From: a virus
Length of the DNA stretch: 38,896 nucleotides
IMG/VR virus record: IMGVR_UViG_3300034198_010576
Location: 1-38,896 of that record
Reading direction: 5' to 3' (one strand)
Shown here: piece after piece, positions 2,081 to 28,075 of the stretch
How positions within the stretch are numbered: position 1 is the first letter of the stretch
Layout: the number at the start of each line of letters is the position of its first letter
Notes under the pieces: model-generated
The model's input: only the letters and a program-made list of their open reading frames with translations
Databases searched by the model: none
What the model was told of the DNA's origin: nothing
Position numbers and translations under genes: made by a program

Positions 2081-2212
2081 GTGCACCTCATCATTGGTGC
2101 ACGGAGCCAGCGATAACGGCCGCGGATAAAGAGGGGGGATGCGTGACCCGTGTCGGCAACGGCCCCGTGCCGAGACACACTGGAGCCAGCCTGACTCGCG
2201 CGCGACAAACCC
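2081..2212. other. Intergenic leader of the holin/spanin genes
   Basis: About 130 bases with no gene on either strand, between the stop of 2213-2479 and the holin-like start. It contains one copy of the leftward motif GCGCGAGTCA at 2192-2201, so it may hold the promoter for the last lysis genes. No clear sigma70 boxes or T-run hairpin were found. Confidence 0.5.
2192..2201 (-). promoter_or_regulatory. Late motif GCGCGAGTCA, site 4 (lysis)
   Basis: Leftward-strand copy of the four-site motif, read as CGC-GCGCGAGTCA-GG. It lies in an intergenic gap 112 bases before the holin-like start. It matches site 3, before the capsid gene, over GCGCGCGAGTCAGG. Confidence 0.5.
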
Positions 2213-2479
2213 TCAGTTGCCGAACAGCTCCTGCAAAACCCTGAAATCAAGGGCCTTGTTCATGAGCAGCAGCACGATGATGATGAGCAGCAACCGCTGC
2301 GTGCCGTGCAGATTGGCCTGCGCTTCCGTTATCGCGTGCATTAGCAACGCATATCGTTTGGTGCATTGCCGCACGTGCAATGCCAGATCCTTCGCCTCTT
2401 TCTCGTCGGGCGTCGCCATGGGGTCGGAGGCCGGATCATAATGCGGCGCCTTGCCAAACAGGGCGTCAAACAAGCTCAC
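2213..2479 (-). CDS. Small membrane protein of the lysis cassette, possible holin
   Basis: 88 residues from GTG at 2479, chosen because GGAGG lies seven bases upstream; a TTG at 2485 is too close to that site. The N-terminal two thirds is polar and helical. The only membrane helix is near the C-terminus (about residues 65-76, L-L-L-I-I-I-V-L-L-L-M), followed by a short tail. It directly follows the endolysin gene, whose stop it overlaps or abuts, and precedes the holin-like gene. A tail-anchored protein in this place could be a holin, an antiholin or a virion-associated membrane protein. No family was recognised. Confidence 0.65.
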   Translation of the reverse strand: MSLFDALFGKAPHYDPASDPMATPDEKEAKDLALHVRQCTKRYALLMHAITEAQANLHGTQRLLLIIIVLLLMNKALDFRVLQELFGN

Positions 2480-2481
2480 GA

Positions 2482-2985
2482 TCAATCCTCCCGAATACTG
2501 ATTGCGTTACTGATGACTGGCAGCGGCCCAACCCATTCGGGGATCAGTGCCTCGCCGGCCGGCCAGCGATAGCCAAGCACGCGGTCGAGCGAAAAGCTCG
2601 CAATCGACACCGCGTCCGACTGGTTGCCGCCGATGATTTGCACCAGCCGGCGCGCCCGATCCGTGCCCAGGTAAAACCCGACATGCCCCTGCCATGCATG
2701 CGGCGGGCGCGACAGAACGACCACGCACCCAAGAGCCGGCGAGTTCAGCCGGCGGCCCCATGTCTCATAGCTGCGCGCATTGGCCTTGCCCGATCCAGTC
2801 TGCCGGCCACGCGCCAGCATCGCGCCAACAAAGGCCGCACACCACGGCACCTCGTCCTGCCCGTCCGCGACATTTGCGAGGCCGGCATCCGACCAGTAGC
2901 GAATGATCCGCGGGTTGTCGGGCGTGCCGGCAAACTCCTGCACCCCCAGTTCGCCCCGCGCATTGCTCAGCCACAACGGATCCAT
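2482..2985 (-). CDS. Endolysin, TIGR02594/CHAP-like cysteine peptidase or amidase
   Basis: 167 residues with the layout of the TIGR02594 family of NlpC/P60- or CHAP-like peptidoglycan hydrolases. W-C-A-A-F-V gives the catalytic Cys49, G-H-V-G-F-Y gives His101, and G-G-N-Q-S-D gives a likely third residue, Asn121. The end (L-G-Y-R-W-P) is also typical. It should cleave peptide crosslinks or an amide bond in the host wall during lysis. There is no signal peptide or membrane helix, so release depends on a holin. It lies upstream of the holin candidates and spanins in one leftward cassette. A virion-associated role is less likely. Confidence 0.85.
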   Translation of the reverse strand: MDPLWLSNARGELGVQEFAGTPDNPRIIRYWSDAGLANVADGQDEVPWCAAFVGAMLARGRQTGSGKANARSYETWGRRLNSPALGCVVVLSRPPHAWQGHVGFYLGTDRARRLVQIIGGNQSDAVSIASFSLDRVLGYRWPAGEALIPEWVGPLPVISNAISIRED

Positions 2986-2986
2986 A

Positions 2987-3538
2987 TCAACCCCACATCA
3001 GGACGACATAGCCGCCCTGCGCCATCGTCACGCCGAGGCCGCCACCACCGCCCGGCTCGATGCCCTCCTGCCCGTCGCCACCCGGCAGGCCTGCAGCTCC
3101 TGGCTGACCGTCGCCCGGATTAGCAGCCTCGCCCGAGAACCCGTCGGCATTGATCGTGCCGCCCGATGCCGTGCCCCCCGTTCCGCCGATCGCCTTCTTG
3201 CCGCCACCGCCCGTCAACGTAATCGATGCCCCGTTGAGGGTGCCGCTCACACTGGACGCCTGCCCGTCTGCTGACGAAACAGCCGACCCTGCCGTGACAG
3301 TGATCGATGTTCCCCACTCCGCTGGCAGAACGGCAACGTCGTGATAAACGAACCCGCCACCCCCACCGCCGTCGTCCCAGTCAAGCGCCGTCGGCGCGTG
3401 GTAATACTGCCGCCCTGCCCCGCCCGCGCCCTGCACCCAAACCATGAGCCGAGAAACGTCGGCCGGCACCGTAACACTGCCAGAAAACCCTGCCTCGTAC
3501 AGCACGCGCGGCGGTATGTAGTTGACCACCGTGCTCAT
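2987..3538 (-). CDS. Glycine-rich tail-tip or adhesin protein
   Basis: 183 residues. The start at 3538 is set by the ATGA overlap with the stop of the tail fibre gene; the longer frame upstream only shadows that gene. The N-terminal half looks like a beta-sandwich. The rest holds glycine-rich stretches (G-G-G-G-G-G-F, G-G-G-G-K-K, E-P-G-G-G-G-G) like the polyglycine helix bundles of phage adhesins. Coupling to the fibre gene suggests that it caps the fibre or sits next to it and contacts the host surface. The exact partner is inferred from position only. Confidence 0.65.
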   Translation of the reverse strand: MSTVVNYIPPRVLYEAGFSGSVTVPADVSRLMVWVQGAGGAGRQYYHAPTALDWDDGGGGGGFVYHDVAVLPAEWGTSITVTAGSAVSSADGQASSVSGTLNGASITLTGGGGKKAIGGTGGTASGGTINADGFSGEAANPGDGQPGAAGLPGGDGQEGIEPGGGGGLGVTMAQGGYVVLMWG

Positions 3539-6537
3539 GACCTGTAGCCCACAAGGGTGCACTTCCACGCCGTGGCATTTGTCGTCGCCGTCGTTGCCGC
3601 TGAGGCCGAACAAAAAATGCCGATCAGTGATCCGCTTGCTATAACCACCGCACCCGGCGTCGCCGTTTGCAGGATCGTGCCGCTGGCAGATGTAAATCCG
3701 CTTGTCACCAGAGACGTGCCACCCGTCACGCCACCGCCATTGCTGGTCGCGGCCGAGCAGCCGTAACGCACATCCATCGTCAGCGTTACGCCCGATGCGT
3801 TGCGTCCGAGTGTGCTTTGAATCTGCGTCACAGTGAAAGCATACGGCAGGTGCATGGACGCCTTGGCCGCCAGCGTGGTGCCAAGAACGAGAAAACTCAG
3901 CTCAGGACTGATTGCCAGCGTGATAAATTCCAACGGCCGCACGTCACGCATCAGCACGCGCCGTGCCGAGGTTGTCGAGTTGTCAAATGTCAGGATCGAG
4001 TCAGCGTTCGCGTCCGGGGCCGTGTCCTGCGTCAGGTTTGCGAGACCTCGCAGGAGCTGCTCCGTCGTGACATAAGCCGCCTTGCTTCCAGTTGCCGCTG
4101 ATGTGTCCCACAACGGCAGGCGATCATCTGTGGCCGGTGCCGCACCAAGCGCCGCGCCGCCGCCAAACAGGTTTTCGGTCGTCAGCTGCCGATGCGCGGT
4201 GCCGTCGTGCAACAGCAGCGCATGGGCGCCCGTGTGCGTCGTGTTGGCCGTCAGCGATGGCACGTCGATCGCCGCCGTGATGTTTCCGCCAGCACCGGCA
4301 TCCGTCAGGGCAATGCCTGCCCCAGCCGTGAGGTATCGCTCGCCCGTCAGGTCGGCGTCGGCGGTGCCGCCAACGAGGACGTAACGGGATGCGGCAGGGG
4401 CGCCCCCGCCCCCACCGCCGCCCGCGCCCCACGCAAGCCCGTTTGGCGCCGCCGAGCTTGCCGTCAGAACCTGTCCGTCAGTACCAACCGACAGCGAGGC
4501 CCAGGTGGCCGTCGCCGTGCCGACAAGCAGCATGCCCTTGGCCGGCGTGATCGCCGCCGCATCCGTCAGCCTGGCACTGTAGGCCTGCACGTCGGTGCCG
4601 ATTGCAACCCCGAGATTGGTGCGTGCGGCCGCATTGGTGGCTGATCCCAGGAGCGTGAATATGTTGGCGCTCGAGGTGAGCGCTTCAGGCGCCCCGGCCA
4701 AGGCCGTCGAGCGTGCCAGGATCTGATACTGGTTGACGTTCGCCAGCTTCGCTAGCGTGACAGCACCGTCGGCGATACCGGCCGTCGCAATCGTACCGAA
4801 CCCGATCGTCGACCCGCTCTCGCGCAGCACGGCACCGCTCGCCGCAGTCGCCGCGATGTCAGCCACGTTGCCGGTGGAATTGGCCGAGCGGCCGATCAGG
4901 CTCAAAGCGCCAGCCTGGCGCAATTGCGTGTTGCCGACACTGTTGGCGACAATGTTGCCCGTCACCTGACCGGCCGTTGCCCAGTCCCAGGATACGGTCG
5001 CGCTGTCTGCCACGACACGCTCGGCGGAAAGGCCGGCATCAGCCGTACGCACAAGGTAATCAACTGTCGATGGCGCGCCGCCTCCCGAAGCCGTGGCCCA
5101 GCGCACGCCGGCGCCCGACGCGCTGTCGGCCTGCAAGAATTGGCCATCGGTGCCGACGCCCACCGTCGTCCAGGCGGTGCCGTTGGCCGCGATGATGTTG
5201 CCCTTGGTGCGGGTCGTGCCGGCCAGATCCGAGAGCTGACTGGCGAAGGCCTGCACGTTTGTCCCAATGGTCAGCCCCAGTGTCGTGCGTGCCGCCGTGG
5301 CATCTGCGTCGTCGATCAGCGAGCGGCCGAAAGACGTGCACGTGATCTCTTCGACATCGCCCGCGCCGGCCGTGGCACGGCCCAGCAACAGATCGGTTGC
5401 AGAGACGTTCTGCAGCTTGGCGTAGGTCACGGCATCATCGGCGATGCCGGCAGTCGCGATCGTGCCGAACCCGATGGTCGATCCACTCTCTCGCAGGACG
5501 GCGCCGCTGGCTGCGGTCGCAGCAATATCGGCGAGGTTGCCCGTCGAGTTGGCCGAGCGCCCCACCAGCGACAGTGCTCCGCCCTGCCTGAGCTGAGTGT
5601 TGCCGACGCTGTTGGTGACGATGTTGGCGCGTGCCTGCCCGGCGGTTGCCCAGTCAAACGAGATCGTCACCGTGTCAGTGACCACACGCTCGGCACTGAG
5701 CGAACCGTTTGCCGTGCGCACCAGGTAGTCGCCATCACTCGGTGCACCGCCACCGCCGCCGCCGGCCACAACCGCCCAGACGCCGTCGCCCCTGAGATAT
5801 TTTCCCTCATCGCCTGCAACCGGCTGCGGCACGATCCCGCGCGAGCCTGATGATCCAGCCGTCGCGCCGCCGAAGGACGGCAGGATCGCGTTGACCTGCG
5901 TGCCGTTCAGGTCAGCCGGCGCGCCGGTGCCGGATCCGCTCTCGCGGCCCTTGATCGTCGCCTGCGCCATCGAGGCCAGCAGCGTGTTCGAGACGCTGCC
6001 AGGCGTCAGGCTCGCGCCCTCGAGCTGGGACAGCGTCGCCGTCGAGACTGTCGGCTGACCGCTGGCATCGAACGCCAGCACCTTGTTGGCGCGCGTGATG
6101 GAGGACGGCAGATCGTTGACGGCCGGATCAGAGCGCCGCGCTCGCAGCACCCGGTCAAGCGCATCTGCCGTGTACTGCGTGCCAATCGCCAGCGTGTCGA
6201 GGCCGCCCTCGAGGGTTGCCGGAACGATTGTCGAGCCACTGGTGTAGTCGGCCGTCTGCAGCGTCGGTGTATTGCGGATGATGTGGATCTGTTGCGTAGC
6301 CGGCGGCGCCGCGGCAAACGTGATTGTCGCGCTCGAGAAGCCGCCGGTTCCGTCGTCTGTGACGGCGGTAATCGCATAATCTGCCGGCGCAGCCTGAACG
6401 CTCTCGGCCCCTGTGGCAATCGTTCGCAAGATCACAACGAGATCGCTTGACGAGCGGAATGGATACGGGAACGCAAACGCGGTTGTTATTGCGTTGCCCG
6501 TGTAGCTGATCCGGTTCTGCATCGTCGCGACTGTCAT
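3535..6537 (-). CDS. Tail fibre protein with duplicated shaft repeats
   Basis: 1000 residues from ATG at 6537, with GGAGG seven bases upstream. The reading frame stays open for 66 more codons upstream, but these only shadow two small genes. The N-terminus (M-T-V-A-T-M-Q-N-R-I-S-Y-T-G-N, to about residue 130) is homologous to the start of the tailspike at 6870-10148 and is probably the virion-anchoring domain of podoviral fibres. A long shaft of Ser/Thr/Ala/Gly-rich repeats follows, with a 115-residue unit present twice (about 263-377 and 486-600). The C-terminal quarter probably forms the receptor-binding head. No intramolecular chaperone motif was seen. It is translationally coupled to the glycine-rich protein downstream. 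Confidence 0.85.
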   Translation of the reverse strand: MTVATMQNRISYTGNAITTAFAFPYPFRSSSDLVVILRTIATGAESVQAAPADYAITAVTDDGTGGFSSATITFAAAPPATQQIHIIRNTPTLQTADYTSGSTIVPATLEGGLDTLAIGTQYTADALDRVLRARRSDPAVNDLPSSITRANKVLAFDASGQPTVSTATLSQLEGASLTPGSVSNTLLASMAQATIKGRESGSGTGAPADLNGTQVNAILPSFGGATAGSSGSRGIVPQPVAGDEGKYLRGDGVWAVVAGGGGGGAPSDGDYLVRTANGSLSAERVVTDTVTISFDWATAGQARANIVTNSVGNTQLRQGGALSLVGRSANSTGNLADIAATAASGAVLRESGSTIGFGTIATAGIADDAVTYAKLQNVSATDLLLGRATAGAGDVEEITCTSFGRSLIDDADATAARTTLGLTIGTNVQAFASQLSDLAGTTRTKGNIIAANGTAWTTVGVGTDGQFLQADSASGAGVRWATASGGGAPSTVDYLVRTADAGLSAERVVADSATVSWDWATAGQVTGNIVANSVGNTQLRQAGALSLIGRSANSTGNVADIAATAASGAVLRESGSTIGFGTIATAGIADGAVTLAKLANVNQYQILARSTALAGAPEALTSSANIFTLLGSATNAAARTNLGVAIGTDVQAYSARLTDAAAITPAKGMLLVGTATATWASLSVGTDGQVLTASSAAPNGLAWGAGGGGGGGAPAASRYVLVGGTADADLTGERYLTAGAGIALTDAGAGGNITAAIDVPSLTANTTHTGAHALLLHDGTAHRQLTTENLFGGGAALGAAPATDDRLPLWDTSAATGSKAAYVTTEQLLRGLANLTQDTAPDANADSILTFDNSTTSARRVLMRDVRPLEFITLAISPELSFLVLGTTLAAKASMHLPYAFTVTQIQSTLGRNASGVTLTMDVRYGCSAATSNGGGVTGGTSLVTSGFTSASGTILQTATPGAVVIASGSLIGIFCSASAATTATTNATAWKCTLVGYRS
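4737..5082 (-). repeat. Internal tail-fibre duplication, copy 2
   Basis: About 345 bases closely similar to 5406-5751 at a constant offset of 669 bases (223 codons), so both copies are in frame. They encode the shaft unit containing R-S-A-N-S-T-G-N and G-F-G-T-I-A-T-A-G-I-A-D. Many third-position differences show that the duplication is old or recombining slowly. Confidence 0.8.
5406..5751 (-). repeat. Internal tail-fibre duplication, copy 1
   Basis: Partner of the repeat at 4737-5082. Both copies run from the L-V-R-T-A motif through to the A-K-L motif of the fibre shaft. They could support length variation by recombination between copies. Confidence 0.8.
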
Positions 6538-6539
6538 GT

Positions 6540-6716
6540 CTAAGCCTCCGGCTCGACCGCCTCGGGCGGCACAAGTCGCTTCAGTGTGTTCACTTTGTCT
6601 TCGAGCACCTTGATGCGGCGCTCGGCTGCCGCGAGCTGCGCGCCAGCAATAGCCGCCTGGTTCAACGCGACATTGCGCTGCTCGGAGATCGCATTGAGGA
6701 GATCGGCTTGATCCAT
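6540..6716 (-). CDS. Small coiled-coil protein (58 aa) upstream of the tail fibre
   Basis: A 58-codon gene starting M-D-Q-A-D-L-L and ending V-E-P-E-A. Most of it (about residues 5-48) is a single amphipathic helix with heptad spacing of A, I, L and V, so a coiled-coil oligomer is likely. Its ATG overlaps the stop of the gene before it (TGATG), and its own stop is two bases before the tail fibre ATG, with the fibre's ribosome site inside its last codons. Tight coupling suggests an adaptor or accessory protein for fibre assembly. No family was recognised. Confidence 0.7.
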   Translation of the reverse strand: MDQADLLNAISEQRNVALNQAAIAGAQLAAAERRIKVLEDKVNTLKRLVPPEAVEPEA

Positions 6717-6868
6717 CAGACGGGCTCCACCTCATGGAACGCCACGACGACCTTCACGCCGTCCACGTCGAGCCAGACTTGTGACGAGCCGTGGACGGGG
6801 TTCAAGTCGATGACGGTGGCGATCTGGCCAAAGAATGGGCCGTCTTCGGTGATGCGGACTTCTGTCAT
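6716..6868 (-). CDS. Small beta-rich protein (50 aa) between tailspike and fibre genes
   Basis: A 50-codon gene beginning M-T-E-V-R-I-T-E-D-G. It starts one base after the tailspike stop and overlaps the next gene in TGATG. Alternating hydrophobic and polar residues (Q-I-A-T-V-I-D-L, V-W-L-D-V-D-G-V-K-V-V-V-A-F) suggest a small beta barrel. The compact position between two host-recognition genes points to a virion or assembly role. The function is unknown. Confidence 0.6.
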   Translation of the reverse strand: MTEVRITEDGPFFGQIATVIDLNPVHGSSQVWLDVDGVKVVVAFHEVEPV

Positions 6869-6869
6869 G

Positions 6870-9800
6870 TTACCCCGTTATGGCGCTGAAGACAGGAACA
6901 TAATAGGCGGTCGTGCCGATATAAATTTTGATGAAGCCGCTGCTGTCGCGCGACGTTGCGCCCTTGAACTTGATCGTGCCCGTGCCTGTCGAATTGGCGG
7001 TGACGTCGCTGGTGCCCGTCAGGGTGTTATGGCTGGCTTGCCCGCCTGCGTCGCCCGAGATGCGCAGTTCAACGCTTGTCTTGAGGTGGGTGCTGATGGA
7101 GCGCAAGGTTTCGACGTTGGCCGATGCCAGGGCAATTTCGTTGGTGCCGACGTTGCCGATGCCCGTGTTGTTGTTGCCAAGCGCCACGAACGAGGTGAAC
7201 CCCGTCGCACCCGGTGCGTCGTTGGCGCTGCCGATGGCGATGTTGCCCGTATCCATGACGCGCATGCGGCGCGTGCCGCCCGTGGTGAACGCGATGTTGT
7301 CGGCGGCGGGGTAGAAGACACCGGTATTGGTGTCGCCCTTTGTTGTCAGTGTGGGCGCGGTGGCGCTGCCTGCGTTGGTTTCTACGATCGGCAATTGCGT
7401 GTTGATCGTGTTCGGCAGGCTGGCGACAATCGAAAGGCTGTTGGCGTTTGACGTAATGTCTAGCGCCGACACCCCGTTTCCAGTCAAATCGGCACCCGCT
7501 ATGGCAACGTTCGCGCCGTCTGCGATGCGCACGCCGTAGCTTTGAGCGGTGCCGGAAGTGTTGCCACAGCGCACCCCCGTGATCGACGCGCGACCCGCGA
7601 CGATGTATATGCCGTTTCGACGGCCTGCGGATGCCGCCTGCCCGTTGTTATCGCAGCGGCACCCGGACACAACGCTTGACGTCGCCGACAGCGCAATCCC
7701 ATCTAGTGAATTTTCGTAAGCGTGCACGTTGTTGACGATGACGCCAGTGTTGTTCGTTGTAACCTCAAGCCCCGAACCTGTGCCAGATGCCGCCGTCGTC
7801 AGTGTGGGCCCTGTCGCATCCCGTCCGGTGCGCTCCAGAAAACAGTTTTGAATGAGGTGTTGATCGCCATAGGTATCAACGTAAATCGCGCTATTTGCGT
7901 CCGATCCGTAAAAACCGCCCAGAACGCGCGCATCATAGATCGGAACTCCAACGCTGCCCAAAAAGCCCACACCGACGCCAGAGTTGGCGAAGGTCGCGCA
8001 CATTTTCAGCGGCCCGACGATCATGCCGGAAGGGCCTGACTGCGACTGGTAGAAAAAGCCGCGTGCGCCATTCATCTGGGCGAGGGTGTTGGTGATGTTC
8101 CACTGGCACGCGGTTGACGTTGCCGCAGCAGTATTCTTGTTGCGGACATAGATCCCGTTGTTGATGTTTTGCTGCGCAATACAGTCCAGCACCTCACTCC
8201 AATCGGTGGAACTGAGGGCAAAACCGTCCCATTGCTTTTCGACCAGCAGGAATTGAAACCGCGTTTGCCCAACAACCTTGTTGGTGAGATCAATACCGTT
8301 AGCGCCGCTTGTGGCTGTAACGCTGCGCGTGAGCCTGAAAGACTCGAGCACGGTGTTGTTCAAGAACTCCGTTATTGTGAACATCGGCAGCGTCGTGCTG
8401 TTCGACTTCACGATGGCGGCATTGAACCCGTCGCCGTACCACCGCTGGCCGTCAAGTGTGACTGTGATGGTGCCGCTGATAAGGTATGTGCCAGGCGGGA
8501 TGTAAACACTTTTCGACCACGCTGCCGCGCCTTGAAAGGCTGACAGCGTCGTTGCCGCGTTTGTATCGTTGTTGTACGCGCCAAACTGCAAAACGCTGGC
8601 ATCGTTTGATGCTAGTTCCCAAATAACTGCGCCGCTGTTGGAGGTGATGCGCGGCGTGCCCGCGCCTGTCGCACCCGACGCCACACGCTTGTAAAGCGCC
8701 CCGCCACCGTCCCCGTTGGCGTAATAGCCAGCCGTGCGGCAATGGTTGACGGTGCTGTCGATGGTGGCCGCATTGACGGCGGCGACGGTATCAAACGCCC
8801 CCAGCGTCTGCTGCTGGGCCAGCGTCGTCGCGTCGTCAACGAGCGCGCGACCTGCCGCCGTGAACGTCGCCAGTGCCGCCGTGCCGGAACCCGTGAAATA
8901 GGGCAGCCTGTCGGCGGCGCTTGTCAGCCCGGCAATGGCCGTTAGTTCAGCGTCATTGACGGCGATGGTCGGGTTGCCCGCGACACCGTCGCCATTAGTG
9001 ACGCCAATGGCCGTGCCGCCCGTGATGGTGCGCCCAGCAAAGGTGTCCGCCGCCGTCTGTGTCAGAAGGCCGTTCGTTGAATACGCAGCAAGCGCCGTCA
9101 GGGTGGCATCGGCTGCTTGAAGGCCGGTTGCCGCAATCGTCGGGTTGCCCGCCGCCCCGTCGCCGTTTGTGATGCTGATGTTGCTGCCAGCCGTCAGCGC
9201 CCGCACCGCTGCCGTGCCTGCGCCTGTCCGGGCAATCATGCCGTTCGCAGACAGTGCCGCAAGCGCGGCCAGATCGGCATCATAGGCTTGCACGTCGGTG
9301 CCAATGACAAGGCCAAGGGTCGCCCGCTGATCCGTTGTACTGGCATCGCCAATGAGGTTTCGGCCGGCCGCCGTGCACGCAATCGTTTCAACGTCACCCG
9401 TTCCGGCAGTTGAACGCCCGAGCAGCGTGTTCGTGGCGACGTGAGCCAACTTGCCAATCGTCACCGCCTGGTGGGCGATCTTGGCCGTTGTTACCGCGAG
9501 GCCGTCAATCTTGCTTGTAGTTACGGCATTGTCGGCAAGGGCTGTCGATGTCACCGCGCCGGCGTCAATTGTCCACGTGGCGCCGCCACCACTGACTGTG
9601 ATGTCGCCCTTGTCGCCGTCCGCCACGCCGCCGCCCGCAGCCACGGACAGCTCGTAGGCCGTACCGCTGGCGTTGACGGTAAGAGCCTTCGCCGCATCTG
9701 CCGCCCTCGGCTCGGGCAGGATAAGGCTCCGGTTCGCCGCCGTCCGCGGCTGCAGGAGCGTGCGCTCGAACCGGCTGTCGAGCTCCTGGACGATCTGGGT

Positions 9801-10148
9801 GAGCTTGTCGAGCGATCCCTCGATCGAGGACGGGGGGATGCCGTCGCCGGCCACGTAATCCGTCGCCTGCGTGCGCGTGACAACCCTGTCGATATGCACC
9901 TGCTGGGCCGCGGTCGGGGCGACGGTGAACGTCACGGTGCCGGAAGCAAAGCCGCCCGCATCGCTCGTCGGCGTGCCTGACACGGTGTAGTTGACGCCCT
10001 CGACCTGCAGGCTCTCGGCCCCGGTCGCGATGGTGCGCAGGGTGACCATTAGGTCAGAGCTGGCGCGGTAGGGGTTTGGGAACGGGAACGCTGTCGTCGT
10101 ACCGTTGCCGATATAGCTTTCGCGGTTCGTCGTTGACGCAACAGTCAC
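6870..10148 (-). CDS. Tailspike with parallel beta-helix, probable polysaccharide depolymerase
   Basis: 1092 residues from a GTG start. The N-terminal 130 residues match those of the fibre at 3535-6537 ([30 protein letters not shown]), marking a shared virion-attachment domain. Shaft repeats follow (for example [11 protein letters not shown]). From about residue 480 the pattern changes to that of a pectate-lyase-like right-handed beta-helix: an opening [13 protein letters not shown] motif, then short turns rich in N, G and V to about residue 930. Such domains bind or cut capsule or O-antigen. The catalytic residues cannot be assigned by eye. The helix region is visibly less GC-rich than its surroundings, which suggests exchange. 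Confidence 0.85.
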
Positions 10149-10155
10149 GGTGGGG

Positions 10156-10181
10156 GCCCCGGCGTTATAACGCTCTGGGGC
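10156..10181 (-). promoter_or_regulatory. Hairpin just before the tailspike start
   Basis: The perfect 12-bp palindrome GCGTTATAACGC (10162-10173) is nested between GCCCC (10156-10160) and GGGGC (10177-10181). It lies between late motif site 1 and the GTG start at 10148. It could be a transcript-stabilising hairpin, an attenuator or a protein site. It has no T-run, so a simple terminator is unlikely. Confidence 0.4.
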
Positions 10182-10191
10182 TACCGCACTG

Positions 10192-10207
10192 GTGACTCGC
10201 GCTTAAT
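10192..10207 (-). promoter_or_regulatory. Late motif GCGCGAGTCA, site 1 (tailspike)
   Basis: On the leftward strand ATTAAGCGCGAGTCAC, an exact 16-base match to 28060-28075, with further partial match on both sides. It starts in the stop codon of the large internal virion protein and lies 45 bases before the tailspike start. Confidence 0.55.
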
Positions 10208-12711: not shown

Positions 12712-14457
12712 TTACTCCATCATGCAGACGGCAGCAGCCCGGTACATGGCGGCCTTGCCCTCAAGCTCCTGCGCCTTCAATTCACCAGGCTTCAACGCAG
12801 CCTCATCCGCGGCGTCCCACATGCCGCGCGCCTTCAGGCCATCGATCTGCGCATCGATGAACCCGACATCATCGGCTACCTGCGCAAGGTCGGCCTCGCC
12901 CCGGCTCACGGCCGCATCGGCGATCCGGCTGAACTCGGCCTGCTCCAATTCCCAATTGTCGATCCCCTCGACGCGCTCGAAACGTGCAAGCATTTCGTCG
13001 GTCACGGGCTGCGCCAACGGATCTTCCTCGCCCGGCTCACGCCAGATGATCTCGTCCGGCTCAAAGTCAGGATCGTCAAAGCGGTTGCGCTGCAAGCTTG
13101 CTCGGTACTCGGCCACCTTGATCGCAGCCGCAGCGACCGTGTCATCCTTCGTCACGCCGGCAAGATTCAGCTCCTCGCGCGCGTGGCCCTTCATGCGAAG
13201 GCCGGGCGTCTCGCCATACGGCATCACCCGCTCGCCGCGTGCCGCCCGATCGATCATGTCGTAGAAATCAGTCAGCTCTGTCTCGCCGGCATCACGCGAC
13301 TTGAACCAGCCGTCCTCTGTAAGGCTCTCGCGGATGTAGTCAGGTGGCCGGCCAGACTTGTTGTTGATCAAGCCCGGATACTTGATGTCCTGCAGGACGG
13401 CCATGATCTCGGCGCCTTCGCGCGTCAGGTTATTGTCAGCCCCCCGCACCTTGATGCCGCCCATCTGCTTGATGAGATACAAGAGGCTGGGCGTCGCGAC
13501 CTTCTCGTCTTCGCCGGCGCGACCCATGACAACCGTCTCGCGCGCCGCCCTGATCGTCTCGTCGTCGAAATCAGGCGCCCGGTGCAGGAACTCCGCATCC
13601 GTCACGCCGTTGCGCCGCTGGGCTTCCGCGAAGAATGCCGTGTCGGCGTTGACGGCCCTGTCTTCCTCAAGCGCCCGAACGGATCGCTCGAGCGCGTCCA
13701 TCTTCACGGGATCCGGTGCGGTGCCAGCGTAATCGCGCAGCCGCGTCGGGTATGCCAGATCCAGTGCCGCACCACCGATCGAGTGCAGCCCGCCGCCCAT
13801 GACGCTGCCAAACACAATGTTGATGAACGAGTCGGCCGCCGTGTAGTCGAGCTGCGCATCCGTTGCGCCCACATAGATCAGGGGCTCAAGGACGGCAGCA
13901 CCTACCCCGCCTTCAAGCGCCCCGACGCCAGCACGAACGCCAGCGCGCGCCCATGGTGATGCCGCCTGCTTCAGCCAGGCCGCATAACGCGCCTCGCCCA
14001 CCACGGGTATGAAAGCCGAGGCGATGTTGATGGGGTCGGCAAAAGATCCAACCAGGCCGCCCGCCAGGGACGCCGCACCGGCAACAAGCCCCCTCGACCG
14101 CTCGATCGCCTGGTTCTGCTGCGCCTCCCGACGCTTCAGATACTTGACGGTGTTCAGCTCGTAGCGCGAGATCCCGCCATCCTGCACCTCGATGTCGAGG
14201 CCCGTCTCTTCGACCTCCTTGCGCGCAGTCGCCGCGTCCACCCAGTCCGTCGCGCCAATGATCCCCTTCATGTCCTCGTCGAGGAATGAATAGCTGCGCA
14301 CAACGCTGGGCAATGCGTTCGTGTCGAGCGCGCGCTCGAGGCCGCTTGCAAATGCCTCGCCCGTCGATGCCTCGTAGTCGTAGATCGTCCCCAAATCCTC
14401 GACGATCGGCGGGCCGACCAGCTGAAACAGGTTTGGCGTCTCGGGGTTATTTGCCAT
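12712..14457 (-). CDS. Internal virion protein
   Basis: 581 residues from ATG at 14457 (M-A-N-N-P-E-T-P-N-L-F), 11 bases inside the end of the preceding gene. A longer upstream frame only shadows that gene. After a polar start there is a hydrophobic, glycine/alanine-rich stretch (about residues 120-215: G-A-A-S-L-A-G-G-L-V-G-S-F-A-D-P, G-V-G-A-L-E-G-G-V-G-A) that could be membrane-active. The rest is charged and helical. The place between gp15-like and gp16-like genes and the split across several open frames suggest part of a podoviral ejection complex. Its own family was not identified. Confidence 0.65.
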   Translation of the reverse strand: MANNPETPNLFQLVGPPIVEDLGTIYDYEASTGEAFASGLERALDTNALPSVVRSYSFLDEDMKGIIGATDWVDAATARKEVEETGLDIEVQDGGISRYELNTVKYLKRREAQQNQAIERSRGLVAGAASLAGGLVGSFADPINIASAFIPVVGEARYAAWLKQAASPWARAGVRAGVGALEGGVGAAVLEPLIYVGATDAQLDYTAADSFINIVFGSVMGGGLHSIGGAALDLAYPTRLRDYAGTAPDPVKMDALERSVRALEEDRAVNADTAFFAEAQRRNGVTDAEFLHRAPDFDDETIRAARETVVMGRAGEDEKVATPSLLYLIKQMGGIKVRGADNNLTREGAEIMAVLQDIKYPGLINNKSGRPPDYIRESLTEDGWFKSRDAGETELTDFYDMIDRAARGERVMPYGETPGLRMKGHAREELNLAGVTKDDTVAAAAIKVAEYRASLQRNRFDDPDFEPDEIIWREPGEEDPLAQPVTDEMLARFERVEGIDNWELEQAEFSRIADAAVSRGEADLAQVADDVGFIDAQIDGLKARGMWDAADEAALKPGELKAQELEGKAAMYRAAAVCMME

Positions 14458-20433: not shown

Positions 20434-20434
20434 A

Positions 20435-21223: not shown

Positions 21224-21247
21224 TGATCAATCTCCTGTTGGGGGGAA

Positions 21248-21272: not shown

Positions 21273-21281
21273 CCTTGCTCA

Positions 21282-21785: not shown

Positions 21786-21799
21786 GAGTTATCTCCCAA

Positions 21800-22687
21800 T
21801 TACGTGGTAACGAGGACTTGCACGATCTTGCTCTCGTGCGTCCTGGTGGCCCCGAACGTCGCCTGAGCGTACGTCTGGTAAGGCATGCCGCGCAGATCTG
21901 TGCGCTGCGTGACGTTGGTCACGATGTCTTCCCACACGCAGAGGTGGATCGCCGACTTGACGAACACCGGGCAACGGAAGTGCGTAGCCGTATCAAGCCG
22001 CTCGCAGTAGACAAAATTGATCCCGAGATAGGAATCGATCCGGCCTTCCTTGAGCACCATCGAGTCATTGTATTCACGGCCGATGATCTGCGCTTCCTTC
22101 AGCAGGTCGTCGATCATCTTCGAGTTGACGACGCAGTAGACAGGATCGCGATCCAGGTCGTTCTGTGCCGCCCTGAGCTTGCGCAGAGCACCGCGCAGCT
22201 TGGCAACGGTCAAACCCGTGTTTGCGGCTGCCTCATAGTTCACGGCGATCTGGAAGTTCGTCGTGTCAAACGAGGTCGATGTCGCGCCGCTCTCGCCGGT
22301 GTAGGCCGTGCCAAACATGGCCGTGATGATTTCATCGTCCATTTCGCGGCCGATGGCATTCACGGCATTCTGCACCTTTACCGAGCTTGGGTCGTTCAGC
22401 ATCTTAAGCTGGTCAAAGTGATCGACCATCTGCGTCACGTCGTACGACACCGGCTGCACCCAGCGGCGCGTGACGGCGGCGTTGACCGGAACAACAGGCT
22501 GAAGCTGGCCCGTAACAATCGAGGCCTCGATGGCTTCTTCGCGCTCAACGGCCACTTTCTGCTTGGCGCCAGACGTGGTCGAGGTGGTGACAAAGGGCCG
22601 GAGCTTGGAGCCCATCTGCTGCAGGCCAAGCTCAAGGCTCGCCCGGAAATCCTGTGCGAACAGAGTGGGGTTGTAGTTGAGTGACAT
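21800..22687 (-). CDS. Major capsid protein
   Basis: 295 residues. The start (Y-N-P-T-L-F-A-Q-D-F), the conserved V-D-H-F-D-Q-L-K-M-L-N-D-P region, A-V-N-A-I-G-R-E-M-D-D-E-I and the end (Y-A-Q-A-T-F-G-A-T-R) fit the Phage_capsid_2-like major capsid proteins of HK97 fold found in many podoviruses. It lies downstream of portal and scaffold genes, with AGAGG before ATG. Its 140-base leader includes hairpins and late motif site 3 at its upstream edge, consistent with separate strong expression. No pro-domain is evident, in line with a separate scaffold gene. Confidence 0.9.
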   Translation of the reverse strand: MSLNYNPTLFAQDFRASLELGLQQMGSKLRPFVTTSTTSGAKQKVAVEREEAIEASIVTGQLQPVVPVNAAVTRRWVQPVSYDVTQMVDHFDQLKMLNDPSSVKVQNAVNAIGREMDDEIITAMFGTAYTGESGATSTSFDTTNFQIAVNYEAAANTGLTVAKLRGALRKLRAAQNDLDRDPVYCVVNSKMIDDLLKEAQIIGREYNDSMVLKEGRIDSYLGINFVYCERLDTATHFRCPVFVKSAIHLCVWEDIVTNVTQRTDLRGMPYQTYAQATFGATRTHESKIVQVLVTT

Positions 22688-22831
22688 TGTGTGTCTGCCT
22701 CTTTCAAAGGTTGATCTGCTCCGCGATCAGGGCCGCGGGGCCTTCCCTCGAATGAGCGCTTGTCTGCAGGCTTGGTGGCGGGTTCCCTTCAGGGACTTGT
22801 CCGCGCGGCCGTCGCAGGTCGTGCATTCAGG
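22688..22831. other. Leader region of the major capsid gene
   Basis: 144 bases without a gene. It holds a short hairpin TCCCT-TC-AGGGA (22784-22795) and a CCGCG/CGCGG stem nearer to the capsid ATG. Together with the motif copy at 22851-22860 it is a natural place for a promoter and 5' leader. No sigma70 -10/-35 pair stands out. Confidence 0.4.
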
Positions 22832-23044
22832 CTAGAATGTTTCGTCGCCCTGACTCGCGCGCAATCTGCCGACCGACTTCATGACGTTGCGCGATGTCTT
22901 GGACTCCGGGGCCGGGGCTTCCGATGCCCATGCCCACAGCCGATCGGCCGTCGCCATGATCTGCACAGGGTCATAGTTGGGCGCATTGAGGCCTGCCGCC
23001 ATCTCGAGCGTCTTGAGCCTGAGTGCAATGCGATCCTCGCTCAT
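22832..23044 (-). CDS. Small protein (70 aa) between scaffold and capsid genes
   Basis: 70 residues from ATG at 23044, which overlaps the scaffold stop as ATGA; the longer frame shadows the scaffold gene. Residues 1-40 form helices (M-S-E-D-R-I-A-L-R-L-K-T-L-E-M-A, D-R-L-W-A-W-A), and the tail is basic and polar. Small helical genes in this slot are common in podoviruses and may assist head assembly. Its last codons contain late motif site 3, so its C-terminal sequence may be constrained by that DNA signal. Confidence 0.65.
   Translation of the reverse strand: MSEDRIALRLKTLEMAAGLNAPNYDPVQIMATADRLWAWASEAPAPESKTSRNVMKSVGRLRASQGDETF
22851..22860 (-). promoter_or_regulatory. Late motif GCGCGAGTCA, site 3 (capsid)
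   Basis: Leftward-strand copy preceded by GATTGC and followed by GG. It lies in the last codons of the 70-residue gene, 164 bases before the capsid ATG. Unlike the other three sites it is in coding sequence, which slightly weakens its case. Confidence 0.45.
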
Positions 23045-23883
23045 TGCTCGGCAATCCGTCGGAGCTGCGTCCACTCGCTCAGCACGGCCGCATGGTTCGG
23101 ATGGTCGCGGGTGATCAGCGCCTGGTATTTGGCCGGATCGCCTTTCAACCCGGTCATGGCCGCCCGCGCCTGATCCTTCGTCAGGCCGCGCTGTTGACCG
23201 TCGGATGTAATGAACCCGGCCTCGACCTTGCTTTCGCCGATCAGGTGAGCCAGTGCCAGCATCTCGCGCGTGCCGATTGCCCGCTCGAGCGCATCGATCT
23301 TGTCGTCCGTCAGCTTGAGCGCCTGGCGCACATGGTTGAACCCGCGCATCGCGAGGTCATGAAAGGCCGGCCACTTCTCGCCCATCTCGGCCTTCATGCG
23401 CTCGGCTGCCTTCTCGCTGGCCTGCACGTAGGCCTCATGCTGCTGCGCCTGTTGCGCCTCGGCCTGCGCCGTCACGTGGCCAACCAGCTTTGCCGCCTGG
23501 TCGTTGGACAGGCCCAGCTGATGAAACACCCCACCCCATTCCTTGACCGCCTCGGGCTTCAAGGCCTTGCCGGCATCGCCCAGGTCATACTTGTCGGCCG
23601 CCTCAGGCACGCCCATCGCAGCCTTGATCTTGGCCCAGCCAGCCTGATCCTCGGCCTTGGGCGGCTCAAACTGCCGGGACGATAGCGCGCGCTCGGCGTT
23701 GATGTAGGCTTCCGCCAGTGCCGCCGGGCCCTTAAACCCCTTGGACTGCACGTAGCTCGAGATCTCGGGCTTTGCGTCGGTGCCAAGCCACGACGTATCG
23801 ACAGCCGGTGCCGACGGCGTTGTCGCCGCGGGCTGGCCGGCAAGGGCTGCGGTCGCAGGGGCGGGGGCAGTCGTCTCAGTCAT
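23041..23883 (-). CDS. Scaffolding protein for head assembly
   Basis: 280 residues from ATG at 23883; a GTG at 23889 is an alternative. A Pro/Ala-rich disordered start (about 1-30) is followed by mainly helical sequence, with Y-V-Q-S-K-G-F-K-G-P-A-A-L-A-E-A-Y and a middle coiled region rich in A, E, Q and K (about 140-185). This composition and the place between portal and capsid genes are typical of podoviral scaffolds (T7 gp9 type). It guides capsid subunits into the procapsid and leaves on DNA packaging. It overlaps its neighbours by 8 and 4 bases. Confidence 0.8.
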   Translation of the reverse strand: MTETTAPAPATAALAGQPAATTPSAPAVDTSWLGTDAKPEISSYVQSKGFKGPAALAEAYINAERALSSRQFEPPKAEDQAGWAKIKAAMGVPEAADKYDLGDAGKALKPEAVKEWGGVFHQLGLSNDQAAKLVGHVTAQAEAQQAQQHEAYVQASEKAAERMKAEMGEKWPAFHDLAMRGFNHVRQALKLTDDKIDALERAIGTREMLALAHLIGESKVEAGFITSDGQQRGLTKDQARAAMTGLKGDPAKYQALITRDHPNHAAVLSEWTQLRRIAEQ

Positions 23884-24163
23884 CGTCACGCATCAGCTCC
23901 ATGATTTGGCTTTCGTCGAACTTCAAAAGGCGCAGGATCCGGTTCACCGTCTCGCGCCGCACCGCAAGGATCAGCGTCCTGTCGTGGTCGCCGGGCACAT
24001 AACCCACATCCATGTACTGGCTCTGGCGCATCAGGCTGCGCAGCAAGACGCGGCCATCGGCGTGCAGGTTGCCCTTCTCGTCGAGCAGCGCGCGGCGCCA
24101 GGCATTGGCCTCGCGGCGTTTGGCACTGACAAATTCACGTATGCGCTCGAGCCGATCGCTCAT
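23876..24163 (-). CDS. Small helical protein (95 aa) between portal and scaffold genes
   Basis: 95 residues starting M-S-D-R-L-E-R-I-R-E-F and ending with an acidic tail (E-L-M-R-D-D-D). It is helical and strongly charged, with R-E-T-V-N-R-I-L-R-L-L-K-F as an amphipathic helix. The start overlaps the portal stop (TGATG) and the end overlaps the scaffold start. A head-assembly accessory role is suggested by context only. Confidence 0.65.
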   Translation of the reverse strand: MSDRLERIREFVSAKRREANAWRRALLDEKGNLHADGRVLLRSLMRQSQYMDVGYVPGDHDRTLILAVRRETVNRILRLLKFDESQIMELMRDDD

Positions 24164-25791
24164 CAGCCACCGCGTGCGATGGCCCCGGCCTCGGCCACGT
24201 TCTTGACGGCAGCCGAAAGATCAGGGGCGGCAGCGGCCGCCTGTTGTGCAGCCTGCGCCTGGGCGCGTGCCTGGCGCTGGGCTGCCATCGTGTCGCGGTT
24301 GGCTAGGATCTTCTCGGGCACGCCCATGACACGGGCGCGGTGGCGGGCCAGCTCGTCGGTATCCACGTTGTCGACAATGTCGGGCGCGAGCTGCACCAGC
24401 GGTGCAATGCCCTGCAGCCACACGTCGACGGCCTGCACTTCCTCGATCTTCTGCAGCCGATTGAGCGGGCTGTCGTACTCGATGCGGTACTCGCCTTGTG
24501 CCTCGATAAGCGCGTCGGGCATCGGGGGCAGCATGTTTTGCCGGGCGAGGATGTCAATCTCCCGGTCGATCAGGCGGCCGAGGAACTCGGACTGTGCCCG
24601 GCCGACGGTCGGGGCAATCAGCTGCCCTTTCTCCTGCATGCGTGCGCGCACTTCGGTGGCCGTCATCTGCGGCGCATCGACCAGGATCTGGAACAGGTTA
24701 ATCAGGGCCGCGTCATTGATGGTGCCCTGCATCGCCCGGATCATCTCGAGCCCGATGTCGATGCGCGCCCCCGTCACCAGCGGCTGGATCAGGGGACGGC
24801 CGTCCTCGCTGATCCCGTAATAGTTCAGTCCGCCCGGTGTCAGGTCAGGGGTCAGGCCCTTGCCGTGCGTGCCGACAGACATGCCGCCGTCATCGTGCAG
24901 CAGCAGCGGCGGGTTCACGACCTTCTCGGCGCCCTTGATGATCGCCTTGCGCGCGGCGTTCAGCATCTTGATTTCGGGCAGCACCTGGCAGGCCCAGCCC
25001 CGGCCGTACCACTCGCCAGGCGCGATCTGGTAGCGGTAGACAGGGATAGGCCACGAGGCATAGCCACCCTGCCGCAGCATCGTGCGCGGCTCGAGCGCGA
25101 TCTCGTAGCTCAGGAACCGCCACGGATTGCGCGGGTTCACGTCAGGGTTCGGCCGGATGCAGTGCAGAAACTTGAACTTGCGAAGCGGGTTCTTTTCGGC
25201 CTCGGTCACAATCTGACCCGGCAGGGCTTCGCCGTAACGCTGCACGGCCGCGCGGGCCGTCAGCTCGAACTGCCGGTGCACCGTGTCGACCAGCCCCCAC
25301 GCGTCGACGGCAAAGTAAAGTTCGTTCAAGGGCACGGAGCGATAGCGCAACCCACCGCCGACCCTGTCCTCGACGAACAAGGCCGCGTTGCCGAACACAC
25401 CGCCCGAGAGGTAGACGTCATGCACCTGGCCGGCGAAGTCGGCGCCGGGAGAGTAGCGCTCTCGAAACAGGATCTCCTCGACCCGGTCAAAATACTCGCG
25501 TACCTCGTCGTCATCGTTCAGGTCGGTAATCGAGGCGGTAATCCGGTGCCACTTGGACGCGCGCGGCGTCATCAGGCTGTCGATTGCCGAGGCGTGGCGC
25601 TCGGCGGCGATCATGGCAGTGCTGTCGTATTGTCGCTGCGTGCGCTTCTCGCCCTGCGTGACCTGCTGGTTCTGAAACCAGCCGTGGTCGGGCAGCACGC
25701 GCTCGGCCACCTCTTGCCACATCAAATTGAAATTCGAGCGCTCGGCCTCGAGCTGGGCATGGTGCCGTAGGATGTCCTCGAGGTTGAGCAC
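24163..25791 (-). CDS. Portal protein (head-to-tail connector)
   Basis: 542 residues from a GTG start; AAGGA lies about nine bases upstream in the end of the previous gene. The protein matches the head-tail connector family of T7-like phages: an N-terminal helical stretch with W-Q-E-V-A-E-R-V-L-P, then Y-D-S-T-A, G-V-F-G-N-A-A-L-F-V-E, the conserved Y-G-R-G-W-A-C-Q-V-L-P-E-I-K-M-L-N, and M-T-A-T-E-V-R-A-R-M-Q-E-K. The last 50 residues are Ala/Gln-rich. Twelve copies form the vertex ring through which DNA is packaged by the terminase and ejected. The length is normal for the family. Confidence 0.93.
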   Translation of the reverse strand: MLNLEDILRHHAQLEAERSNFNLMWQEVAERVLPDHGWFQNQQVTQGEKRTQRQYDSTAMIAAERHASAIDSLMTPRASKWHRITASITDLNDDDEVREYFDRVEEILFRERYSPGADFAGQVHDVYLSGGVFGNAALFVEDRVGGGLRYRSVPLNELYFAVDAWGLVDTVHRQFELTARAAVQRYGEALPGQIVTEAEKNPLRKFKFLHCIRPNPDVNPRNPWRFLSYEIALEPRTMLRQGGYASWPIPVYRYQIAPGEWYGRGWACQVLPEIKMLNAARKAIIKGAEKVVNPPLLLHDDGGMSVGTHGKGLTPDLTPGGLNYYGISEDGRPLIQPLVTGARIDIGLEMIRAMQGTINDAALINLFQILVDAPQMTATEVRARMQEKGQLIAPTVGRAQSEFLGRLIDREIDILARQNMLPPMPDALIEAQGEYRIEYDSPLNRLQKIEEVQAVDVWLQGIAPLVQLAPDIVDNVDTDELARHRARVMGVPEKILANRDTMAAQRQARAQAQAAQQAAAAAPDLSAAVKNVAEAGAIARGG

Positions 25792-25797
25792 GCGCGT

Positions 25798-25980
25798 CTA
25801 TCCTTTGGGGTTCAGGGCCAGCCACTCGGCCTCGTAAGTGTCGGCATAAGCCTGCAGCATTGCGTTCAGGGGCACGCCTGTCAGGCTGGAGACAATCAAC
25901 TGATGAAACGACTGAGCGCCAAAAACAACCTGCACCCCGTAGTACGGTGCGGCCGGCTCGACGATCTCGGCCGTCGCCAT
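25798..25980 (-). CDS. Small protein (60 aa) upstream of the portal gene
   Basis: 60 residues from ATG at 25980 in TGATG overlap with the gene before. The sequence M-A-T-A-E-I-V-E-P, then Y-Y-G-V-Q-V-V-F-G-A-Q-S-F, followed by a helix ending A-D-T-Y-E-A-E-W-L-A-L-N, suggests a small mixed fold. It is six bases from the portal start and should be translated with it. Function unknown. Confidence 0.55.
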   Translation of the reverse strand: MATAEIVEPAAPYYGVQVVFGAQSFHQLIVSSLTGVPLNAMLQAYADTYEAEWLALNPKG

Positions 25981-27251
25981 CACACCGTCCTCGACAGCTT
26001 GACCTTGACCTGACCTGCAGCCACTGCCGTCGTGTCCGCATCTGCGACACCGCCCGTAATCGCGATGCCAAGGCCGAGCGCAAACCGGTAGCCGTTGAAT
26101 CCAGGCGTCAGCTCTGCCACCCCAGGAACGCCCGAAACAGCGGCAGGCACAGGAATAATCATTTCAGGCACATCGGTGCCGACCGTCGGAGCCGTCGCCT
26201 TGTTGTAAAGCTTGACAAACGCAGCCGATGCTCCGGTGTTGGTCGCGTAGAAAGCCTGAAGGCCCGACGTACCTGTCAGCACCAGCGCACCGTTCGTGCT
26301 CGCTGCCGAGTTCACAAAGTAAGGCGTCGCCGGGGCGGCCGGCGTGCCGGCGGTCGTAACAGTTGTGAGGGCCGTCACCGTCGAAACCGTCGTCACAACG
26401 CCGTTGGTGACGGAGACGGGGAACGCCTTCGAGGCGTCCGTCGTGCCAGGCGAACGCGGCGAGATGTCGAAGCGCGCGGCATCCAGGATGTTCACCATGT
26501 GAACACGCCAGTCGGTTGTCGACGCCGGCGACGTGCCGCCATTCTCGACAATGATGTACAGCTTGAATTTCTTGTTCGGGTGCACATACAAGCGATCGTA
26601 GGCAAACTGCCCGCCCGTATTCGTCAGCGAGTTCTGCCCCCATGCGCGGGCATTGATGCGATCGCGCTCGACCTGCATGCTGTATGTCGTGGCCGCGATC
26701 CAATTGGGGCCGGTGCCAGTTGCCACGCTCGTGAAGCCAGCGCCAAAGGCGTTAGCAAGCACGTCGAGGGCAGAGCCTGCCGCGCGGACGTGGAGCTGGG
26801 CCGTCGTCGCCGTTACGCCGTCATGGCTGTGCAGAATGGCGTTTCGCGCGCCAAGCACGTCGGGCACGGTCGAATAGGCCGTGCTGGTAATCAGGTTGCC
26901 TTCGTCGTCAACCTCGAGGAAACCGATCCTGAGCTGGTTGTTGGCAATGCGCTGCGAGGCAGAGATCTGATACCGAAGCTCAAGCGGCATCGAAAAGATG
27001 GCACGAGAGCGAATAATGGTTTTTGAGCTGGCCGTGGTGCCGGAAGCAATATTGATATAGGGCGACGCACCGGCGGCCGCGCCACCGAGCGGGCCGGTAA
27101 TTGTCATGCCCGAGCCTGTCTGCACAGTCTCCCACGTGCCAGAGTCGAAGTCGTGGAAGTTATCGAAAAACTTCTCGCGCGCCGTGCCTACAACGAGCTT
27201 CTCGTTGGCCGAATCGTAGCCGGCCACCATGCCTGAAACCACAGAACTCAT
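25980..27251 (-). CDS. Structural protein with lectin-like domain
   Basis: 423 residues, beta-rich throughout and low in lysine, typical of an extracellular virion protein. Residues about 25-245 (F-F-D-N-F-H-D-F-D, strands around L-E-L-R-Y-Q-I-S-A-S-Q-R and F-K-L-Y-I-I-V-E-N-G-G) resemble a concanavalin-like jelly roll. The C-terminal part has Thr/Val-rich strands and glycine turns (F-N-G-Y-R-F-A-L-G-L-G-I-A-I). Located before the portal, it may be a head fibre or a capsid-attached carbohydrate-binding protein. The fold assignment is by eye and uncertain. Confidence 0.55.
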   Translation of the reverse strand: MSSVVSGMVAGYDSANEKLVVGTAREKFFDNFHDFDSGTWETVQTGSGMTITGPLGGAAAGASPYINIASGTTASSKTIIRSRAIFSMPLELRYQISASQRIANNQLRIGFLEVDDEGNLITSTAYSTVPDVLGARNAILHSHDGVTATTAQLHVRAAGSALDVLANAFGAGFTSVATGTGPNWIAATTYSMQVERDRINARAWGQNSLTNTGGQFAYDRLYVHPNKKFKLYIIVENGGTSPASTTDWRVHMVNILDAARFDISPRSPGTTDASKAFPVSVTNGVVTTVSTVTALTTVTTAGTPAAPATPYFVNSAASTNGALVLTGTSGLQAFYATNTGASAAFVKLYNKATAPTVGTDVPEMIIPVPAAVSGVPGVAELTPGFNGYRFALGLGIAITGGVADADTTAVAAGQVKVKLSRTV

Positions 27252-27538
27252 GCGCGCACACTCACCAGGTTGGAGTAAAGGCCAGAGGGCACCCCGCCGT
27301 TGACAGCCACACGCACGCGCGCGCCGTCGGCGATCACGACATCAATGAACCCATTGCTGCTTAGTGCGGCGCCCACAACGTTGATCGCGGTTCCGTTCGG
27401 GCCTTGGGCCTGCAGCTGAAGCGTCGCGCCGCCGAAGGTTCCCTCGGCCGCAAAGATGTAGCGCCCGCCAATCGCATCGAACCAGGCTGTTGGGCCGGTT
27501 GTCGATCCGTTGACGATGAAATCGAGCTTTTGGGACAT
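27248..27538 (-). CDS. Small beta-rich virion protein (96 aa)
   Basis: 96 residues from ATG at 27538, in TGATG overlap with the Ala/Gly-rich gene; it ends in ATGA overlap with the lectin-like gene. The pattern of strands (K-L-D-F-I-V-N-G-S, A-T-L-Q-L-Q-A, I-D-V-V-I-A-D-G-A-R-V-R-V-A-V-N) is that of a small beta-sandwich. The four-gene overlap chain with virion genes suggests a structural role. Not recognised. Confidence 0.6.
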   Translation of the reverse strand: MSQKLDFIVNGSTTGPTAWFDAIGGRYIFAAEGTFGGATLQLQAQGPNGTAINVVGAALSSNGFIDVVIADGARVRVAVNGGVPSGLYSNLVSVRA

Positions 27539-28050
27539 CAACCGGTTCCTGTCAGGCTCGGGGCTCCGAGCGTTGGCGATGAAGTCACACCCGCCGGCGA
27601 CGTGAGCAGGGTTGCCGCGCGGCCGCGCCGCTTGAGCATCATGGACTGCCGGTCGGCAGCCGCGCGCGCGTCATCGCGGGTCGGGGCCTTGGGTATGTCA
27701 AGCGATGGGGCCTCGCTCAGGAGCTGAGCACCGGCACCTGCCAGGCTGGATCCTGCCGCAACAAGCTCGGCCGTCGTCAGGCCCGCTGCCGCCGGCGCCG
27801 CAAAGCCAGAAGCCACGCCGGCGCCTGCCAATGCCTCGGCCGTACCGCCGGCAATGCCTGCCACCTGAGCCGCCGTCAACCCGGCACCTGCAGCTCCTGC
27901 AGCACCGGCCGCGCCTGCAGCTCCTGCTGCTGTTGCCGCCGTCGTGCCTGCTGCCGCCGCCGTCGTGCCGGCAGCCGCCGTGCCTGCGGTCGTGAGGCCC
28001 GTGTAAATAGATGCGAGAAGGGTTTCGATTCCGCTCATGCTGCTGCGCAT
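27538..28050 (-). CDS. Alanine/glycine-rich structural protein
   Basis: 170 residues from ATG at 28050 with AAGGGGG directly upstream; an ATG at 28038 is possible. Residues about 16-90 are an Ala/Gly/Thr low-complexity stretch with repeated A-A-G units, hydrophobic enough to enter a membrane or form glycine-zipper-like helices. The C-terminal third is basic and polar, with S-P-A-G-V-T-S-S-P-T near the end. It is the first gene after the large terminase and lies 11 bases after late motif site 2. A minor virion or ejection protein is a reasonable guess. Confidence 0.6.
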   Translation of the reverse strand: MRSSMSGIETLLASIYTGLTTAGTAAAGTTAAAAGTTAATAAGAAGAAGAAGAAGAGLTAAQVAGIAGGTAEALAGAGVASGFAAPAAAGLTTAELVAAGSSLAGAGAQLLSEAPSLDIPKAPTRDDARAAADRQSMMLKRRGRAATLLTSPAGVTSSPTLGAPSLTGTG

Positions 28051-28059
28051 ATCCCCCTT

Positions 28060-28075
28060 GTGACTCGCGCTTAAT
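28060..28075 (-). promoter_or_regulatory. Late motif GCGCGAGTCA, site 2 (start of structural block)
   Basis: Leftward strand ATTAAGCGCGAGTCAC, identical to 10192-10207, then AAGGGGGA. It covers the terminase stop codon and sits 11 bases before the next start codon, so a transcript starting just downstream would have a very short leader. Confidence 0.55.

Follow-up and report, generated by a model that had tools for sequence, protein, structure and literature searches.

We propose that the ten-base box GCGCGAGTCA is the activator site of phage late promoters and that it is bound by the product of gene 29634-29927, acting with host sigma70 RNA polymerase; we give this reading a probability of about 0.7. 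The positions of the box, its conservation, its geometry and its co-occurrence with that gene were all observed directly. How late genes are activated in temperate T7-like phages that lack a polymerase of their own is, to our knowledge, mostly not understood.

The window, by which we mean the whole stretch of 38,896 nucleotides that was analysed, carries an 87-bp terminal direct repeat, and the record is therefore probably a complete genome. The record encodes a temperate podovirus. Searching its main ORFs against PHROG and Pfam, we found a portal, tail tube and internal virion proteins of T7-like type, as well as a terminase, a primosomal protein, a Holliday junction resolvase, CI, YdaS/Cro-like regulators and an exonuclease; an integrase gene, read from the sequence, spans the record ends. 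Beside the integrase gene, at 277-460, lie four copies of GTTAGCCAA on both strands, together with a cluster of GANTC sites; these repeats look like the integrase arm sites of attP. The small protein encoded at 31943-32383 (minus strand) has as its sole recognised domain the DnaA C-terminal DNA-binding domain (PF08299, E 3e-16). Prophage relatives that might point to the host were sought in genome scans, and none was found.

Four copies of a ten-base box ahead of late genes

The window holds exactly four copies of GCGCGAGTCA (2192-2201, 10193-10202, 22851-22860 and 28061-28070), all on the minus strand, as an earlier note on this DNA had claimed, and there are none elsewhere. In order of position they stand ahead of the distal lysis block, the tailspike gene, the capsid gene and the first post-terminase gene. 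By our reading of the translations, the site at 2192 has the lysozyme-like gene 2482-2985 on its upstream side and, downstream, genes for a membrane protein and spanin-like proteins. The 22851 copy falls within the last codons of ORF 22832-23074, where it is also protein-coding. The copies at 28061 and 10193 share a 16-base match, ATTAAGCGCGAGTCAC, which that note had also reported. One-mismatch variants of the box are no more frequent in the window than chance predicts.

The chance argument of the earlier note held in part: any given 10-mer is indeed expected only 0.36 times in the window, but the argument was incomplete, as 187-195 10-mers reach at least four copies in this GC-rich DNA. Because about 190 others match it, the copy number of GCGCGAGTCA carries little weight, and we rejected it, taken alone, as a measure of significance. 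The unusual part is placement: intergenic DNA makes up 2.9% of the window, and GCGCGAGTCA is the sole repeated 10-mer with three of its four copies wholly intergenic (expected, 0.019). A literature search for the 10-mer returned only incidental matches in unrelated papers. We also rejected CI/Cro operators as the source of the box. The perfectly palindrome-like ATAGGTATTCCTAT at 32630-32643, between the Cro-like and CI genes, is likely a repressor operator; it differs from the box, and the relatives do not share the repressor.

Relatives were collected by IMG/VR searches with portal, capsid, terminase and virion-protein queries. We found that the box is kept at the same places in related phages, 10/10 at homologous sites, an outcome on which the earlier note had staked its motif. 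Between two clades the box is 10/10 identical and the adjoining spacer 37% identical (37/100), and in G001, a near-complete relative, the box occurs four times on the same strand and nowhere else. A DNA-only pattern scan of IMG/VR returned 45 stretches, among which one contig outside the known clade, G023, was alone in having more than two copies and the regulator gene. Its five copies, all on one strand within 22 kb, precede the terminase small subunit, the MSG gene, the portal, another gene and the capsid. The other matches outside the clade had one or two copies and no regulator homologue; they are apparently chance occurrences or unrelated repeats, as in L142 and L166. In these two isolate-derived virus contigs, which have no regulator gene, GCGCGAGTCAAAATTACTATA forms part of a repeat, about 60-70 bp long and dispersed (L142:3043; L166:2238 and 3808).

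Geometry of the predicted promoters

Aligning 18 sites from five lineages, we found that within about 60 nt no column is invariant except those of GCGAGTCA and an A exactly 11 nt on. A weighted profile of 22 sites similarly gave three peaks: a T or TT upstream, the box, and a TA 10-11 nt downstream in which the A is invariant. The upstream T, at index -3 from the box start region, occurs in 15 of these 18 sites; of the five G023 sites, three have it. The A at +11 was first seen in the clade of the window and then in all five G023 sites, where only it and the box are invariant (P about 3e-4, an approximate value given the small number and partial relatedness of the sites). If this A is taken as -11, the T falls at -35, the spacer is 17 nt and the box occupies about -31 to -22. 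As judged from these alignments, the spacing of T(-35) and A(-11) is that of a sigma70 promoter. The gap from box to TA is 9 nt; beyond A(-11) the -10 is weak, and so is the -35 beyond its T. Scanning sites A and B for consensus promoters gave nothing, a result expected for activator-dependent promoters and equally for no promoter at all. The same element stands ahead of several late blocks, on the coding strand and at a fixed distance from the core elements, as in activator-dependent late promoters.

All four predicted promoters lie on the minus strand. Promoter A (28039-28074) has T(-35)T, the box at 28061-28070, TA at 28050-28051 (-12/-11) and a predicted start at about 28039; its target would be the first post-terminase gene (27538-28038, MSGIETLL...), which begins at 28038. 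It is kept in L005, L006, L007, L008, L010, L011 and G023, and is shifted in L038. Promoter B (22829-22864), ahead of the major capsid gene, has TT at -35/-34, the box at 22851-22860 and the A at 22840, and is kept in L006, L007, L009, L011-L013, L016, L018 and L019 (ten contigs with the window). Promoter C (10171-10206; box 10193-10202, TA 10182-10183) precedes the tailspike/tail gene 6870-10148 and is kept in L024, L025 and L033. Promoter D (2170-2205; box 2192-2201, A 2181) precedes the distal lysis block, made up of 1475-2086 and spanin-like genes, and is kept in L024/L034 and L033.

The near-identical sites in multiple copies, together with the resemblance of ATTAAGCGCGAGTCAC to T7 TAATACGACTCAC, would suit promoters of a phage single-subunit RNA polymerase. 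The earlier note had found no gene for such an enzyme, and none was seen among the main ORFs in our PHROG and Pfam scans; a direct PF00940 search gave no match, but its controls gave none either. With no gene seen in a probably complete genome, and only the box and one A fixed in place of a continuous 20-nt block, we regard this explanation as extremely improbable.

At site A and at three of the G023 sites (those of the MSG gene, the portal, and the box at 12745, which has an ATG 26 nt after it), the ATG follows the predicted start by 1-5 nt. Some late mRNAs, including the transcript from site A, may therefore be leaderless. Caulobacter and Sinorhizobium reportedly use leaderless mRNAs. Downstream of promoter B stands a capsid 5' leader (22688-22850, minus strand) with nested helices that is conserved in ten contigs. 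Five of its 26 predicted pairs keep pairing through two-sided changes, and the leader has no Rfam match. When the leaders of C and D were folded, unusual stability appeared only in C of the window: the hairpin of this tailspike leader (10140-10192, minus strand; z -3.7) is not kept in L033.

The earlier note had left three options: the site of an activator of host polymerase, a promoter type not yet described, or an RNA processing site. Of these, the first and second amount to one option here, and it is supported by the conservation of the motif at matching places in relatives, its fixed promoter geometry and its co-occurrence with the gene at 29634. The third belongs to a wider reading in which the motif is recognised in RNA, for processing, antitermination or translation control, and the position of the sites in leaders at gene junctions and the conserved structured leader after promoter B would agree with it. 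Nevertheless, the start codon follows at anything between 22 nt and about 160 nt, the spacing of the fixed T and A on either side agrees with that of a promoter, and the linked protein has a DNA-binding fold; recognition at the RNA level is in our view very unlikely. RNA processing in particular is disfavoured because the downstream A is fixed, the upstream T is semi-fixed and the motif moves with the downstream gene.

A candidate regulator gene that accompanies the box

The candidate cognate late regulator is encoded at 29634-29927 on the minus strand, directly upstream of the terminase genes; it is a protein of 97 amino acids with a LexA-type winged helix and no peptidase domain. We found that this is the only regulator-like gene common to all motif lineages that cover its place: it is present in the window, L005, L006, L008, L011, L028 and G023, while the neighbouring early genes differ. 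Of the two proteins that the earlier note had put forward as binders, this one does co-occur with the motif. The other, the YdaS/Cro-like product of the gene at 32387, is not favoured: no homologue of it was found in motif-bearing relatives, including L028, which extends 10 kb upstream of the regulator.

All seven other contigs that bear the gene have the motif, or a shifted version of it, near late genes. A regulator profile built from six members and run against 80 terminase relatives matched only the diverged L038 and L005, which belongs to the known clade; in the 78 relatives that do not carry the gene, GCGAGTCA was absent from up to 1.5 kb downstream of TerL. The L038 regulator is 47% identical, and the G023 homologue, which protein scans had missed, is 54% identical. 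L038 does not contain the exact 10-mer. Instead, at its single visible site, it has a shifted box, CAGCGAGTCA, in which two of ten bases differ; the N9-TAT layout is the same, and the box lies 21 nt before the homologous gene, even though an extra gene separates that gene from TerL. L038 thus offers a diverged pair of box and protein that vary together. The G023 portal is 44% identical to that of the window, no nearer than the portals of MW202898 (44%) and BUCT708 (43%), neither of which has the regulator gene; the box therefore tracks the regulator gene and not general kinship. This linkage to one gene across distant phages also bears on whether the sites, which do fall at borders of gene blocks, are a recombination linker between modules or mere chance. 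Since they are, in addition, on one strand only and have an A fixed 11 nt away, we hold linker or chance to be highly improbable.

None of the six regulator members matched Pfam, and the likeness to known regulators is at the level of fold only. The regulator profile had no match among solved-structure sequences, and no homologues were found in GenBank phages and plasmids. AlphaFold models show a winged helix (pLDDT 76 and 78), with loop 43-56, the site of the family's most characteristic residues, modelled poorly and unreliably. Foldseek against the PDB placed LexA repressors on top (best E 0.02, prob 1.00), and VIA gave Z 8.3 over 70 residues (rmsd 2.7, 30% identity), a Z of about 8 being modest. 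LexA heads both structure lists at about 28-31% identity, which agrees with a LexA N-terminal fold.

The LexA fold raises the possibility that the same protein and box form a repressor system, in which a LexA-like protein would cover the spacer between -35 and -10 and keep the late genes off until its removal. The box is indeed located where a bound protein would obstruct polymerase. Against this, repression would hardly be needed with a -10 and a -35 as poor as these, the gene sits in the leftward lytic operon and not next to CI, and the box is stricter than the core elements, as in a positive element. We therefore consider repression unlikely.

Proposed mechanism and known systems

In the activator model that we favour, each promoter would have a -35 of host type that is weak, in most cases a T or TT, followed by the invariant box and by a weak -10 with a fixed A(-11), usually as TA. 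The product of gene 29634-29927 would be made alongside the lytic and replication genes; this small winged-helix protein would bind the box and contact host sigma70 RNA polymerase, and the terminase-proximal, capsid, tailspike and lysis blocks would be turned on jointly late in infection. DNA binding, activation over repression, the use of sigma70, the start sites and the timing are what we infer from the arrangement described above. A monomeric activator is favoured because the box is non-palindromic and lies in the spacer, the core is poor, the box is strict and the gene belongs to the lytic operon. As the box is non-palindromic, unlike LexA and gp6 sites, binding as a monomer must be assumed. 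If the model is right, an invariant box and a 97-residue protein make up a late-gene switch found as a full, testable pair from sequence alone, and could offer a compact promoter/activator part.

The box includes GAGTC, a CcrM site. GANTC is scarce in the window (38 sites against 113 expected) and is the most depleted palindrome of its type in motif-bearing contigs, at 0.27-0.44 of expectation. Among the TerL relatives L038-L116 it ranges from 0 to about 1 of expectation; we rejected its depletion as a marker of the motif, for it occurs in TerL relatives without the box as well. Because many of these box-less relatives show it too, the depletion marks a host group, and its pattern suggests that the hosts are probably CcrM-bearing alphaproteobacteria. 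The variation among relatives could be used for host inference. About half of the pelagiphages studied show similar GANTC depletion (PMC9516812). The box might double as a methylation switch, with late promoters set by full, half or no methylation of phage DNA, which would couple late transcription either to the host cell cycle or to replication of the phage; we think this quite unlikely.

In the GcrA/CcrM promoters of alphaproteobacteria, GANTC likewise lies between -35 and -10 of sigma70 promoters (PMC3667746, PMC7987155), which raises the question of whether host GcrA, a sigma70 partner, acts here via CcrM-methylated GAGTC. That sequence is present in both the box and the shifted box of L038, the GANTC depletion of motif-bearing contigs points to suitable hosts, and the GcrA footprint at ctrAP1 covers -35 to -10 (PMC3667746). 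However, CGAGTCA / TGACTCG fits the Caulobacter motif YGAKTCK on neither strand (PMC7987155), TerL relatives that lack the box show GANTC depletion just as often, and GcrA accounts neither for ten invariant bases nor for the tie to a phage gene. We judge this explanation very improbable.

The activator model has counterparts among phages. T4 middle promoters, which use MotA and AsiA, likewise place a non-palindromic box at about -30, ahead of a host -10 (PMC2988021), and the proposed likeness extends to a small activator that binds as a monomer and replaces the need for a good -35. The MotA box (TGCTTtA), however, tolerates changes and is separated by 12 +/- 1 bp from a near-consensus -10, whereas the box here is almost invariant and stands 9 nt from a weak -10; neither AsiA nor MotA was identified. 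Phage Mu provides another parallel to the model: its late promoters lys, I, P and mom have poor core elements, and all four depend on a single activator, C (PMC4461284). As compared by description, C differs in binding a different site, upstream of -35.

In the temperate phage GIL01, gp6 is a small protein equivalent to a LexA DNA-binding domain, and it works with host polymerase in late activation, at promoter P3 (PMC6182141). Its site at P3 is palindromic (GaCACAC GTGTGaC) and has its centre at -43.5; here, again as compared by description, a non-palindromic 10-mer at -31 to -22, in the -35/-10 spacer, would serve four or five promoters, and the box is not a gp6-type palindrome centred near -43.5. 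Together with GIL01, these findings suggest that phages infecting unrelated hosts have adopted LexA-type DNA-binding domains as late activators.
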